Positions 3,857-8,970 of a stretch of 37,023 bases of DNA are shown here, one piece after another. The stretch is from Chthonomonas calidirosea. Its GTDB lineage: Bacteria > Armatimonadota > Fimbriimonadia > Fimbriimonadales > Fimbriimonadaceae. Position numbers and translations under genes: made by a program. Below the pieces are notes generated by a model. That model ran no database searches, had not been told where the DNA came from, and saw only the letters and a program-made list of their open reading frames with translations. Positions within the stretch are counted from its first letter, which is position 1; every line of letters begins with the position of its first letter. The stretch spans positions 1 through 37,023 of the forward strand of contig CAMCWC010000023.1 in NCBI GenBank assembly GCA_945882415.1. The letters are read 5' to 3'.

Positions 3857-6007
3857 ATGCCCCGTAGTCACGCTCTAAACTTCGTTCGGAACATCGGTAT
3901 TGCTGCGCACATTGACGCCGGCAAGACAACCACCACCGAGCGCATCCTCTATTACACCGGTAAGAGTCACAAGATCGGAGAGGTTCATGACGGAGCAGCG
4001 ACGATGGACTGGATGGAACAGGAGCAGGAGCGAGGAATTACGATCACCTCGGCCGCTACCTCGTGCTTCTGGCGCGTCAGCCGATTTGACGATACCGACG
4101 GTAAGAACACGTCGGACCAGTACAAGATCAACATCATCGACACCCCTGGCCACGTTGACTTCACGGTTGAAGTCGAGCGTTCGCTTCGAGTGCTCGACGG
4201 TGCCGTCTGCGTTCTCTGTGCGGTCGGTGGCGTTCAGCCCCAGACCGAAACAGTCTGGCGCCAGATGAACAAATACATGGTTCCGCGAATCATCTACGTC
4301 AACAAGATGGACCGAATCGGAGCCGACTTCTACTCGGTTCTTGAGCGAGCAAAGGATCGACTCGGCGCCAACGCGGCTCCGATCCAGATTCCGATCGGCC
4401 AGGAAAGCGAGTACCTCGGTTACGTTGACCTCATCACCATGACCGCCGCCGTTTACGACACGGACGACGACAAGGGTAAGAGCTTCCGCCGAGCCGAAAT
4501 TCCGGAGAACATGCGAGAAATCTCGGCTTCCTACCGGGAGAAGATGCTTGAGGCGATCGCAGACTATGACGAAGAGATCATGGTTCGATTCCTCGATGGC
4601 GAAGAGATCAGCGAACAGGACATCCGCGTAGCGCTCCGAAAGGGATGCTTGGCAAACAAGATCGTTCCGATGATCAGTGGCTCCTCGTTCAAGAACAAGG
4701 GAGTCCAGGCGATGATCGACTCGGTCATCGACTACCTGCCATCGCCGCTCGACGTCGGTGAAGTGAAGGGCGTTGACCCAGACACGGAAGAAGAACTGAC
4801 CCGCGCACCAGACGATAAGGCTCCGTTCAGCGCTCTTGCGTTCAAGATTCAGAGCGACAAGTTCGTTGGCCGATTGACTTACCTCCGCGTTTACAGCGGA
4901 ACCCTGAAGAAGGGATCTTCGGTCAGCGTCACGTTCCGAGACCCAGTTTCGAACGACTTCCGAACTCGAACCGAGCGAATCGGCCGAATTTTGGAAATGC
5001 ACTCGAACCAGCGACAGGACATCGACGAAGTATTCGCCGGTGACATCGTGGGCGTTATCGGTCTTGCCGACGTTAACACCGGACACACGGTTTGCGACGA
5101 AGATCACCAGATCGCGCTTGAAAGCATCAAGTTCCCAGAACCAGTTATCCAGATCGCGATCGAGCCGAAGTCTCGATCCGACCAGGAAAAGCTTGGTACG
5201 GCGCTTGTTCGACTTGCGCAGGAAGACCCAACCTTCCGAGTGTTCACTGACCCCGAAAGCGGCCAGACGATCATCTCCGGAATGGGTGAGCTTCACCTCG
5301 AAATCATCGTTGACCGACTGAACCGAGAGTTTGGCGTTCAGGCGAACCAAGGAAAGCCACAGGTTGCTTACCGAGAAACGGTTCGCGGCAAGGCGAAGGC
5401 AGAAGGCCGATTCGTTCGACAGACGGGTGGTTCCGGTCAGTACGGTGTGTGTACGATCGAAATGGAGCCACTCGAAGTTGGACAGGGCTTCGTCTTCGAG
5501 AATAAGGTCGTCGGTGGTGCAATTCCGAAGGAATACATCCCAGCTTGCGAAAAGGGAATTCGAGAAGGTCTGATCTCGGGCGTTCTCGCCGGATATCCGG
5601 TTGTGGACGTTAAGGTCTCGCTGACCGACGGTTCTTACCACGACGTTGACTCGAACGAAAACGCCTTTAAGCAGGCAGGTCTCTTGGCGTTCAAGGAAGC
5701 CATGAAGAAGGCAAACCCGGTTCTCAAGGAACCGATCATGCACGTCGAAGTCACGACGCCAAACGACTACGTTGGAGACGTTGTTGGAGACATCAGCAGC
5801 CGACGCGGTCAGTTGCAGGGTCAGGACTCGGCTCCGGGCGGAGTTGTGGTCATCAACGCCCACGTTCCACTTTCGGAAATGTTCGGCTACGTTACGACGC
5901 TTCGATCCCTCACCCAGGGTCGAGCCGCTCCAAACGTGACTCCGAGCCACTACGAAGAAGTGCCAAACAACATCGCCGCGGAAATCACGGCGAAGAGCTC
6001 GCGCTAA
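3857..6007 (+). CDS. fusA: Translation elongation factor G
   Basis: EF-G is the GTPase that drives tRNA-mRNA translocation and, with RRF, ribosome recycling in the cytoplasm. The 716-residue product has G1 AHIDAGKT (17-24), G3 DTPGH (95-99) and G4 NKMD (149-152), and is full length for the family. The start chosen is the ATG at 3857 (MPRSHALNF) because it gives the usual EF-G N-terminus and has GAGAAG about 8 bases upstream. A GTG at 3827 would add ten residues with no family support. Between switch I and G3 there is a loop of roughly 17 residues (about 73-89, [12 protein letters not shown]) that is longer than in Thermus; E. coli also has extra residues here. The gene stands as its own unit with a terminator behind it and no rpsL/rpsG in front within the window. 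Confidence 0.98.
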
Positions 6008-6021
6008 GCCGAGTCGTTGCG

Positions 6022-6056
6022 AAAAGCTCCTGCCAGAAATGGCAGGAGCTTTTTTT
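6022..6056 (+). terminator. Intrinsic terminator after fusA
   Basis: A 14-bp stem (6022-6035 with 6040-6053) has a GAAA tetraloop and a run of T bases to 6056. This is a textbook Rho-independent terminator 15 bases after the fusA stop codon. Confidence 0.95.
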
Positions 6057-6137
6057 GTGCCTGATGAGTGGTGATGGTCTGAGGTTTTTGGGACCTTATG
6101 CGGGAAACTTGCTCTATGGAGGCATCCTCTAACAAGC

Positions 6138-6593
6138 ATGCCGATGATCATAAATCGTCCACCAAATGGCTCCCCTAAACCACCGCATCAGGTTCCGACC
6201 CAGCCTGCGGTGGCAATGGGTGACACGGTGTTTGCTACAGTGTTTGGTCTCATGGCCGGTCTTTTGGCTTTAGGTTCTTTTGGGGCTGCAATTTGGATTT
6301 TGAGTCCAGCCGTAACGCAGAACGCGGGCATGGGGGCGCTCATGATTCCGATCATTTCTGGACTCCTAATGATCGTCTTCATCGTCGGGCTTTTCTGCGC
6401 AATCAAGCTAACGCCGCTAATGCTGCGCGGAGAGAGTTCTGGTTTCACCTTGGCTAGCGTGGCGTGTTTCGGGCTTGTGGCATCACCAGTAGGAGCTTAT
6501 GCTTTAACTAGTTACATTGCTATGGCATTGGCGATCGGCGTACTTGTCCTTGGCTTTTTGGGCCTATACCGTGGGATTCACGGACGATGGTGA
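6138..6593 (+). CDS. Small four-helix membrane protein, unknown function
   Basis: A 151-residue protein with a proline-rich cytoplasmic-looking leader (PPNGSPKPPHQVP) followed by four hydrophobic stretches, roughly residues 32-56, 66-89, 102-122 and 126-146. It has no motif I recognise. It is the first of three small membrane proteins lying in a row between fusA and tuf; all three have a Pro-rich N-terminus or its remnant followed by four helices, so they may share an origin. The start could be 6138 or the in-frame ATG at 6144, since no clear ribosome binding site is seen. Membrane location is well supported; function is unknown. Confidence 0.65.
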   Translation: MPMIINRPPNGSPKPPHQVPTQPAVAMGDTVFATVFGLMAGLLALGSFGAAIWILSPAVTQNAGMGALMIPIISGLLMIVFIVGLFCAIKLTPLMLRGESSGFTLASVACFGLVASPVGAYALTSYIAMALAIGVLVLGFLGLYRGIHGRW

Positions 6594-6633: not shown

Positions 6634-6690
6634 ATGGCGCTGAAAATTTCAAAACACGATCCTTCTCAACCGCCGCCAGTCATCGGGCCG
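6634..6690 (+). repeat. Direct repeat, copy 1 (5' end of membrane-protein gene)
   Basis: The first 19 codons of the intact gene. The second copy is at 7092-7148, with three substitutions in 57 bases. The copies begin 458 bases apart and diverge sharply after the shared segment. Confidence 0.9.
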
Positions 6691-7065
6691 AAGTCGTCCA
6701 ATGCGGTTTTCGCGGTCATTTACGTTCTGATGTGCCTAGTCACAGATATTGCGGTTCTGTCCACGATGTTCTTCCAAACCCCAGAAATGAAGTCGGGCGG
6801 CCTCGGAGTCGTTGGTTGGCTCTTCTTTGTCGCCCTTGGTGCCTTGGTGATTAAGGTTCTAATCGGCGTGCTGTCCGTTCCACTTTACAATGGCAAACGC
6901 TGGGCTTACGAAGTTGCGTTTCTATCTCTTCTCGCTTCGCCGCTCTTTCTCCTTCTAGGTGGGCTGGCCACGACGCTCCCAGCGGGAATCTTCTACGTGA
7001 TCGGGACGCTGAACTTGGCTCTGGCCGTCGGCGCGCTCGTTATCAGTCCGCCGAAGCTCACTTAG
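6634..7065 (+). CDS. Small four-helix membrane protein (intact tandem copy)
   Basis: A 143-residue protein with a soluble leader of about 24 residues (MALKISKHDPSQPPPVIGP) followed by four predicted membrane helices, near residues 25-45, 58-80, 92-113 and 116-136. No functional motif is recognised. Its first 57 bases (6634-6690) recur at 7092-7148 with only three changes, showing that the next gene is a tandem duplicate that has since diverged in the membrane part. An AAGG lies about 9 bases upstream of the ATG. Function is unknown. Confidence 0.65.
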   Translation: MALKISKHDPSQPPPVIGPKSSNAVFAVIYVLMCLVTDIAVLSTMFFQTPEMKSGGLGVVGWLFFVALGALVIKVLIGVLSVPLYNGKRWAYEVAFLSLLASPLFLLLGGLATTLPAGIFYVIGTLNLALAVGALVISPPKLT

Positions 7066-7091
7066 TCGAGATTCAAACCTAATCACTTGGT

Positions 7092-7157
7092 ATGGCACTG
7101 TAAATTTCAAAGCACGATCCTTCTCAACCGCCGCCAGTCATCGGGCCGCGGGCATCG
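7092..7157 (+). pseudogene. Relict 5' end of the duplicated membrane-protein gene (nonsense codon 4)
   Basis: This matches the first 19 codons of the gene at 6634 (repeat copy 2, 7092-7148) but has AAA changed to TAA at codon 4 (7101-7103). The old frame is exactly in phase with the ATG at 7158, 22 codons later, so the downstream open frame is the body of the same ancestral gene. The leader is therefore either lost from the protein or bypassed by reinitiation. Confidence 0.75.
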
Positions 7158-7532
7158 ATGGTCGGTTTCGCGGCACTCTTTGTCCTGGTGAGCCTTGCAA
7201 CGGTGTTGCTCAGCATCTTTGCCCAAGGACATCCGGTTCGACGCTCCCTCAGCCTAATCGATCCAAGTGACGGAGAGATTGCTGTCAAGCAAATGGTCGC
7301 CTTCTTTGGGGTGCCATTCACTGTCATTCTCGCGATCGCCCTGGCAGTGCCTCTTGTCAAATCGAAGCCATACGCGTTCGGTGTTGCTGGGGCTTGTCTT
7401 CTTGCTTCGCCGCTCTACGTTTATTGCTGTGTGTCAAACACAACGGTGCCGACCTGGCCATTCTTCTGCGTTGGAACGGTGAACATCGCGCTCGGGTTGG
7501 TGGCGTTCATTCTGAGGCCGCGCGCGACTTAG
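7158..7532 (+). CDS. Truncated tandem-duplicate membrane protein, possibly a pseudogene
   Basis: An open frame of 124 residues with four hydrophobic stretches, starting almost directly in the first helix (GFAALFVLVSLATVLLSIF). It is the remainder of a duplicate of the gene at 6634. The ancestral start at 7092 is followed three codons later by TAA, and 7158 is the first in-frame ATG after it. No good ribosome binding site precedes 7158, so expression is doubtful. The two copies still share placement of helices and motifs such as LLASPL, but the membrane part has diverged. The body has no further stop or frameshift, which suggests either a recent nonsense change, a sequencing error, or continued use of the shorter product. 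Confidence 0.5.
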   Translation: MVGFAALFVLVSLATVLLSIFAQGHPVRRSLSLIDPSDGEIAVKQMVAFFGVPFTVILAIALAVPLVKSKPYAFGVAGACLLASPLYVYCCVSNTTVPTWPFFCVGTVNIALGLVAFILRPRAT

Positions 7533-7638: not shown

Positions 7639-7660
7639 GCACGATTGTCTAGACCCCTCC

Positions 7661-7720
7661 TGTGGGAAGGTAGAGACCGAAGTTGGGCGACGGGTCGCCC
7701 CCCTCCATCCCACATTGGGA
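7661..7720 (+). promoter_or_regulatory. Structured tuf leader with competing hairpins
   Basis: TGTGGGA (7661-7667) can pair with TCCCACA (7708-7714), enclosing a GGGCGA/TCGCCC hairpin (7685-7690 with 7695-7700). The same TCCCA (7708-7712) can instead pair with TGGGA (7716-7720) just downstream. The two folds exclude each other. The leader also contains the AAGTTGGGCGACG core at 7680. Confidence 0.35.
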
Positions 7721-7737: not shown

Positions 7738-8970
7738 ATGGCACGAGCAAAATTCGAAAGAACCAAACCTCACGTCAACATTGGCACCATTGGCCACGTT
7801 GACCACGGTAAGACGACCCTAACCGCAGCGATCACGGGAGTCCTTCAAACGAAGGGACTCGCCCAGGCCCGAAAGTACGATGAAATCGACTCGGCGCCAG
7901 AAGAAAAGGCCCGTGGAATCACGATCAACATTTCGCACCAGGAATACGAGACGGATACGCGACACTACGCGCACGTCGACTGTCCTGGACACGCTGACTT
8001 TATCAAGAACATGATCACCGGTGCTGCCCAGATGGACGGCGCTATTTTGGTCGTGGCTGGTACGGACGGCCCAATGCAGCAGACCCGAGAGCACATCCTT
8101 TTGGCTCGACAGGTCGGTGTTCCACACATCGTTGTCTTCATCAACAAGATTGATGCCGTCGACGACGAAGAACTGCTGGATCTCGTCGAAATGGAAGTTC
8201 GAGAACTCCTGAGCAAGTACGGCTTTGACGGCGACAACACGCCAGTCATCCGCGGCTCGGCTCGAAAGGCCCTCGACCAGGTTGAAGCCGGAACGGTTGC
8301 TTACGACGACAAGTACGTCAAGGCGATCACCGACCTCATGGATGCAGTCGATGCCTACATCCCAACCCCAGAGCGAGACAAGGACAAGCCATTCTTGATG
8401 GCCGTTGAAGACGTCTTCACGATCACCGGACGAGGCACCGTTGCTACGGGCCGAGTTGAGCGCGGTCAGCTGAAGTCGATGGAAGAAGTTGAGATCGTTG
8501 GTCTCTCCGAAGCTCCACGAAAGACGATCTGCACCGGCGTTGAAATGTTCCGAAAGACCCTCGACTACTGCGAAGCTGGCGACAACGTCGGCTTGCTGCT
8601 CCGAGGCGTTGACCGAACGATGATCGAGCGCGGCATGGTTATCGCCAAGGTCGGCACGATCAAGCCGCACCGAAAGTTCAAGGCAGAGGTTTACGTTCTG
8701 TCGAAGGAAGAAGGCGGCCGACACACCCCGTTCGTTAAGGGTTACCGACCACAGTTCTTCTTCCGAACCACGGACGTTACTGGAACCATCGAAGAAATTC
8801 AGGGCCAGGGCGGAGTCGTTGCGGAAATGTGCATGCCTGGTGACAACGTCACCATGAGCATCGAACTGATCGAAGGCAAGCCAGTTGCCGTCGAGCAGGG
8901 ATCGAAGTTCTCGATTCGTGAAGGTGGCCGAACCGTCGGCGCCGGCGCGATCACCGAGATCATCGAATAA
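7738..8970 (+). CDS. tuf: Translation elongation factor Tu
   Basis: EF-Tu delivers aminoacyl-tRNA to the ribosomal A site as a GTP complex. The 410-residue product has GHVDHGKT (19-26), DCPGH (81-85) and NKID (136-139) and all three domains. It is about 15 residues longer than E. coli EF-Tu because of a longer segment after the G5 SARKAL motif, as in cyanobacteria and plastids. Of 25 arginine codons counted by eye, 19 are CGA. It is a single-gene unit with its own leader and a terminator behind it, whereas in many bacteria tuf is co-transcribed with fusA. Only one tuf copy is in the window. Confidence 0.98.

Follow-up and report, generated by a model that had tools for sequence, protein, structure and literature searches.

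Nonsense alleles that turn members of tandem gene families into pseudogenes are a known outcome of birth-and-death evolution, and gene conversion over short tracts is likewise known to act between neighbouring paralogues. Both concepts bear on a locus we analysed in a 37,023-nucleotide stretch of Chthonomonas calidirosea DNA (contig CAMCWC010000023.1, positions 1 to 37,023, forward strand; hereafter the window), in which genes for small four-helix membrane proteins form a tandem array between fusA and tuf and one copy, W2 (7092-7532), carries a premature stop. Our findings suggest that W2 is probably a tandem duplicate early in decay, which was hit after its leader had been homogenised with that of its neighbour, W1.

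Except where stated, all features lie on the plus strand. The left border of the array is fusA (elongation factor G, 3857-6007), whose translation is 99% identical to its homologue in G014 and whose start we infer to be at MPRSH; the right border, assigned from reading frames and homology, is tuf (elongation factor Tu, 7738-8970). Between them, reading frames and comparison with G014 (a pond MAG of the same genus, JAIXQR010000007.1) identify one b-type gene (6138-6593, 151 aa, 58% identical to G014 gene B), the intact c-type gene W1 (6634-7065, 143 aa, 87-88% identical to G014 gene E) and W2. The fusA-tuf interval of G014 holds seven array genes, A-G (142, 151, 144, 151, 143, 144 and 148 aa), all of them open, with A, B and D of b type and C, E, F and G of c type, so that the two species possessing the array have different numbers of genes in it. 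The b and c types may be distant relatives, as judged from a profile comparison (E 1.5e-5, probability 79%).

As the original prediction had it, the first 57 bases of W1 (6634-6690) recur at the head of W2 (7092-7148) with three changes, one of which makes a stop. In W1 these bases form codons 1-19 and, according to sequence comparison and the structure model, encode a proline-rich N-terminal tail; 54/57 of them are the same in W2, the exceptions being 6639/7097 (G-A), 6643/7101 (A-T) and 6654/7112 (A-G). While the changes at 7097 and 7112 are silent, that at 7101 converts AAA into TAA (7101-7103) at old codon 4 of W2, a stop seen by both sequence comparison and homology search. Chance repetition is excluded, W1 and W2 being alignable over their full length when read across the TAA (43% identity, E 7e-21). 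Also real is the likeness of the leaders as against the divergence of the rest, with 3/57 bases changed in the former vs 48% DNA identity and 31% protein identity in the latter.

The comparison with a close relative, as had been proposed, points to 7092 as the ancestral start of W2. Because the starts of W1 and W2 are 458 bases apart, precisely the spacing of the intact pair E and F in G014, we regard 7092 as ancestral and the stop in W2, therefore, as derived. The 30 bases upstream of W2 match those upstream of F at 17 positions. All four c-type copies of G014, together with W1, are open from this common start, so 5/6 c-type genes are intact homologues against which the stop of W2 is premature. 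What the stop takes away is the sole strongly conserved segment of the protein: invariant residues of the six c copies concentrate in the proline-rich tail (I5, K7-V16), in which K7 H8 D9 P10 S11 Q12 P13 P14 P15 V16 are invariant in 6/6 copies, and pairs of copies have 13-18 residues of the 19-codon leader in common. This is not matched by the underlying DNA: leaving out W1/W2, fourfold sites differ at 65/119 positions in the leaders of the 14 other pairs, compared with 307/519 in the bodies of the same pairs. Since silent sites of the leader are thus about as variable as those elsewhere, the tail seems to be maintained as a peptide and not as DNA. At a guess, family members may be small membrane subunits that bind a common partner through the tail.

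Of three options put forward originally for W2, a gene early in decay, one with a newly shortened N-terminus or a read error, the first is now the best supported, given the ancestral start at 7092, the removal of the conserved tail and a ribosome site at 7158 that does not rise above background. A sequence of events may be envisaged in which short gene conversion, or template switching, between the two neighbours with their 458-base spacing homogenised the leader, after which codon 4 of W2 became a stop through one base substitution (A to T, provided that the W1 codon served as template). Ribosomes starting at 7092 would make three residues and stop, presumably yielding little or no protein, and a restart at 7158 would give a product devoid of the conserved tail; the loss of W2 may be tolerable through its intact neighbour W1. 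One nonsense change alone does not, however, prove loss of W2 function.

Indeed, the remainder of W2 is still open, and this is where the option of a functional gene whose N-terminus has been shortened comes in. The codons of W2 from 7104 to 7155 are open, and the first ATG after the stop (7158-7160) is in frame with the ATG at 7092, as claimed previously; the frame that it opens runs for 124 codons to a stop ending at 7532 and, by reading frames, conservation counts and the structure model, encompasses all four hydrophobic segments. No second lesion is present, with no further stop across 142 codons, and of 24 body columns without variation among the other five copies W2 retains 13, as many as intact copy G does. 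Body identities to other c copies are alike, too (28-31% for W2, 28-32% for G). From the lack of a second lesion and the 13/24 columns, as in G, it follows that the stop is recent or that the rest of W2 is still used. In the latter scenario, ATG 7158, or else a rare start codon (ATT 7104, for instance), would serve for initiation, and a tail-less four-helix membrane protein with a changed role would result. Consistent with this, erosion of W2 is no greater than that of G, and the structure model of W1 (mean pLDDT 82.3) predicts the tail as a low-confidence extension ahead of the long helices (residues 20-46, 57-85, 89-111 and 117-137), and the fold could therefore survive without it. By that model, a product from 7158 would be tail-less but have all four membrane segments.

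Against a shortened but working W2, conservation within the family is highest in the tail, an open frame is also expected after a fresh stop and the 124-residue product was modelled with low confidence (mean pLDDT 61.9). Ribosome-site scoring, based on what we take to be the anti-SD sequence, gave no signal above background at 7158 (-2.3 vs a background mean of -2.3), with -1.1 for 7092, -2.4 for W1, a mean of -3.5 for a further 18 starts in the window (4/18 of which score 0) and 0 for intact gene A. Since the dead start at 7092 is also poor and other genes are low as well, such scores discriminate little and, as weak evidence, give no support for 7158 as a start. All in all, we consider a functional, tail-less W2 unlikely, albeit the least unlikely among alternatives to decay.

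Less probable still is that W2 is intact and the TAA an error of sequencing or consensus calling, or a variant from a minority strain caught in the assembly. One base decides the matter, and with a leader repeated 458 bases apart read misplacement is possible; yet the substitution is isolated, the other two leader differences are silent, misplaced W1 reads would bring the W1 base rather than T, and neighbouring fusA and tuf read through intact. Errors of this kind are rare in finished consensus sequence. To our minds an equally long shot is a stop that acts not as decay but as a recent switch: conversion would keep the leader DNA alike, and through a three-codon opening frame (ATG GCA CTG TAA) ribosomes arriving from W1 would resume translation at 7158, yielding a four-helix partner of W1 without the tail found in all other copies.

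Returning to decay following homogenisation, the leader conservation that had been called odd is not so for amino acids, where selection on a peptide kept in all six copies explains it, but it is for silent sites, and conversion is thus needed for the latter only. W1 and W2 differ at 1/11 fourfold sites in the leader vs 20/34 in the body (Fisher p 0.005), and 1/11 is also out of line with the 65/119 above (binomial p 0.002), so near-identity of silent sites is confined to this one pair. In base changes, W1/W2 differ by 3, the 14 other pairs by 10-17 of 57 and the orthologues W1/E by 12 (12 vs 3, Fisher p 0.024), the latter also differing at 7/10 leader fourfold sites; because the 14 comparison pairs have sequences in common and are not independent, p values on leader pairs are guides only. 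With 3 changes for W1/W2 vs 12 for W1/E, paralogues older than the species split are more alike than orthologues, in the leader only, and silent-site identity here is well above that of the W1/W2 body and of W1/E. The idea that this likeness reflects selection on the leader DNA or RNA itself may appeal to the protein-level likeness of the leader in all copies, but we reject it as scarcely credible, silent sites varying freely in the other pairs, as they do in the bodies, and in W1/E.

Hence the local gene conversion suspected in the original prediction finds support: the silent sites show that W1 and W2 were made alike in their tail-coding DNA after the split from G014. The longest exact part of the proposed tract is a run of 36 bases (7113-7148) identical to 6655-6690; the bases just upstream of the two genes do not match (7/30). 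Leader bases that differ give no single direction of copying, W2 having GCA in codon 2 as in E and F, and AAG in codon 7 as in E and G. A possible second short conversion patch (7397-7416), suggestive only, has 19/20 bases in common with 6927-6946, compared with 14-16/20 in C, E and F, and diverged flanks.

As for the descent of W2, which is present in one genome only, a tree of the six c copies places W1 with E firmly (99/99), whereas the placements of W2 and G, both on long branches, are not firm, and we therefore claim no orthologue of the W2 body among the G014 copies. The 5' end of W2 has the position of F, its 3' end the extra loop residues and the tuf-side position of G; a candidate F-G fusion by deletion would explain both features. 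In G014, B and D start 1049 bases apart, as do C and E, which marks a duplicated gene pair; besides this 1049-base two-gene repeat, there is the 458-base single-gene repeat. The spacer between F and G (L020, 7308-7457) aligns with the upstream regions and first bases of b-type genes (TCTAAC....ATGCCGATCA) but the gene body is gone; a b-type gene was lost here, and decay is thus not confined to the window. A block upstream is common to b-type genes (window 6076-6137; L020 4807-4868 and 5856-5917; GGTC.GAGGTTTTTGGGACC...GGGAAACTTGCTCT...TCTAAC) and possibly constitutes a candidate promoter or leader of each gene pair.

Looking beyond these two species, we took the DNA upstream of tuf from the other 18 genus members, where fusA is present in 13/18 stretches and three end early at contig ends. 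The fusA-tuf interval measures 313-494 bases in G003, G010, G011 and G002, and 1763, 3650 and 3799 bases in G001, G015 and G008, with unrelated reading frames inside. As it is short in several members and holds unrelated frames in others, the interval seems to accept insertions. Some of the frames in G001, G008 and G015 (L064, L068 and L062) have a prepilin-like start. Antisense to fusA, on the minus strand of the window (3875-6151), there is a 758-codon open frame, which probably is a by-product of codon usage.

The family itself is restricted to this lineage and has no match above cut-off in the libraries searched. It is found in 2/20 genomes of the genus at E 0.001, and strong profile matches occur in 2/113 genomes of the order (G000 and G014); four weak ones among these 113 (G039, G025, G004 and G010; E 7e-4 to 7e-3) were not accepted. 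Contig searches by single protein returned no wider relatives, and those by profile the G014 contig as the sole relative. Ten array proteins each gave no match above cut-off in Pfam and NCBIfam, and there was none above threshold among PDB sequences. Five of the ten were searched against PADLOC, with 0 matches at E 0.1 to anti-phage defence, and against PHROGs, with no match worth following (the one hit, that of W2 to a PHROG without known function, is at E 0.05). The best Pfam match of copy F, the one protein among the ten scanned to have it, is DUF308 (PF03729; E 0.0022); at 18.7 bits vs a curated 25 bits and in F only, this does not make the array family a member, although F resembles DUF308 in being a small membrane repeat without known function. 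The predicted fold is a common four-helix bundle, for which Foldseek found no match in the PDB at E 0.001 or better and VIA-align retrieved common four-helix bundles only (best Z 11.8 at 7% identity, a range counted as uninformative for bundles).

Next to the array, just before tuf, lies a highly conserved leader (window 7640-7706, core GACCGAARTNGGGCGACGGGTCGCCC) with two candidate hairpins. A covariance model of it matches once each in 25/291 genomes of the phylum, all within the family of the window, and in 25/25 the match is upstream of tuf (23 by script; L104 and L105 by reading). Rfam holds no match for it. Pairing is kept at 98.2% as opposed to 41-57% for slid versions, and in base-pair counts no pair is changed on both sides, because the leader hardly varies; its structure is hence not proven by covariation. 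Possibly, it is a candidate new cis-regulatory RNA of elongation factor Tu.

Taken together, the array is a small group of related genes for membrane proteins that changes fast, is lineage-restricted and lies between two highly conserved translation genes, and it is a small, clear case of copies being gained, mixed and lost. What it captures is ordinary duplication and loss of genes, with no known biology overturned, but silent sites here tell peptide-level selection from DNA copying in W1 and W2, and the history of W2 is legible through one close relative. In keeping with a birth-and-death family, the number of paralogues changes, one copy has a premature stop next to an intact neighbour and a related genome retains the relic of another copy. 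W2 differs from the usual nonsense pseudogene in that its lesion falls within a stretch that was made alike to a neighbour, the leader being common to the damaged and the intact copy. The W1/W2 pair in turn resembles known cases of short-tract conversion, in that silent-site identity is limited to one stretch of paralogues otherwise saturated and is younger than the species split, yet departs from them in the shortness of its tract, with 36 exact bases or 57 including three changes, and in a tract onset no further upstream than the start codon.
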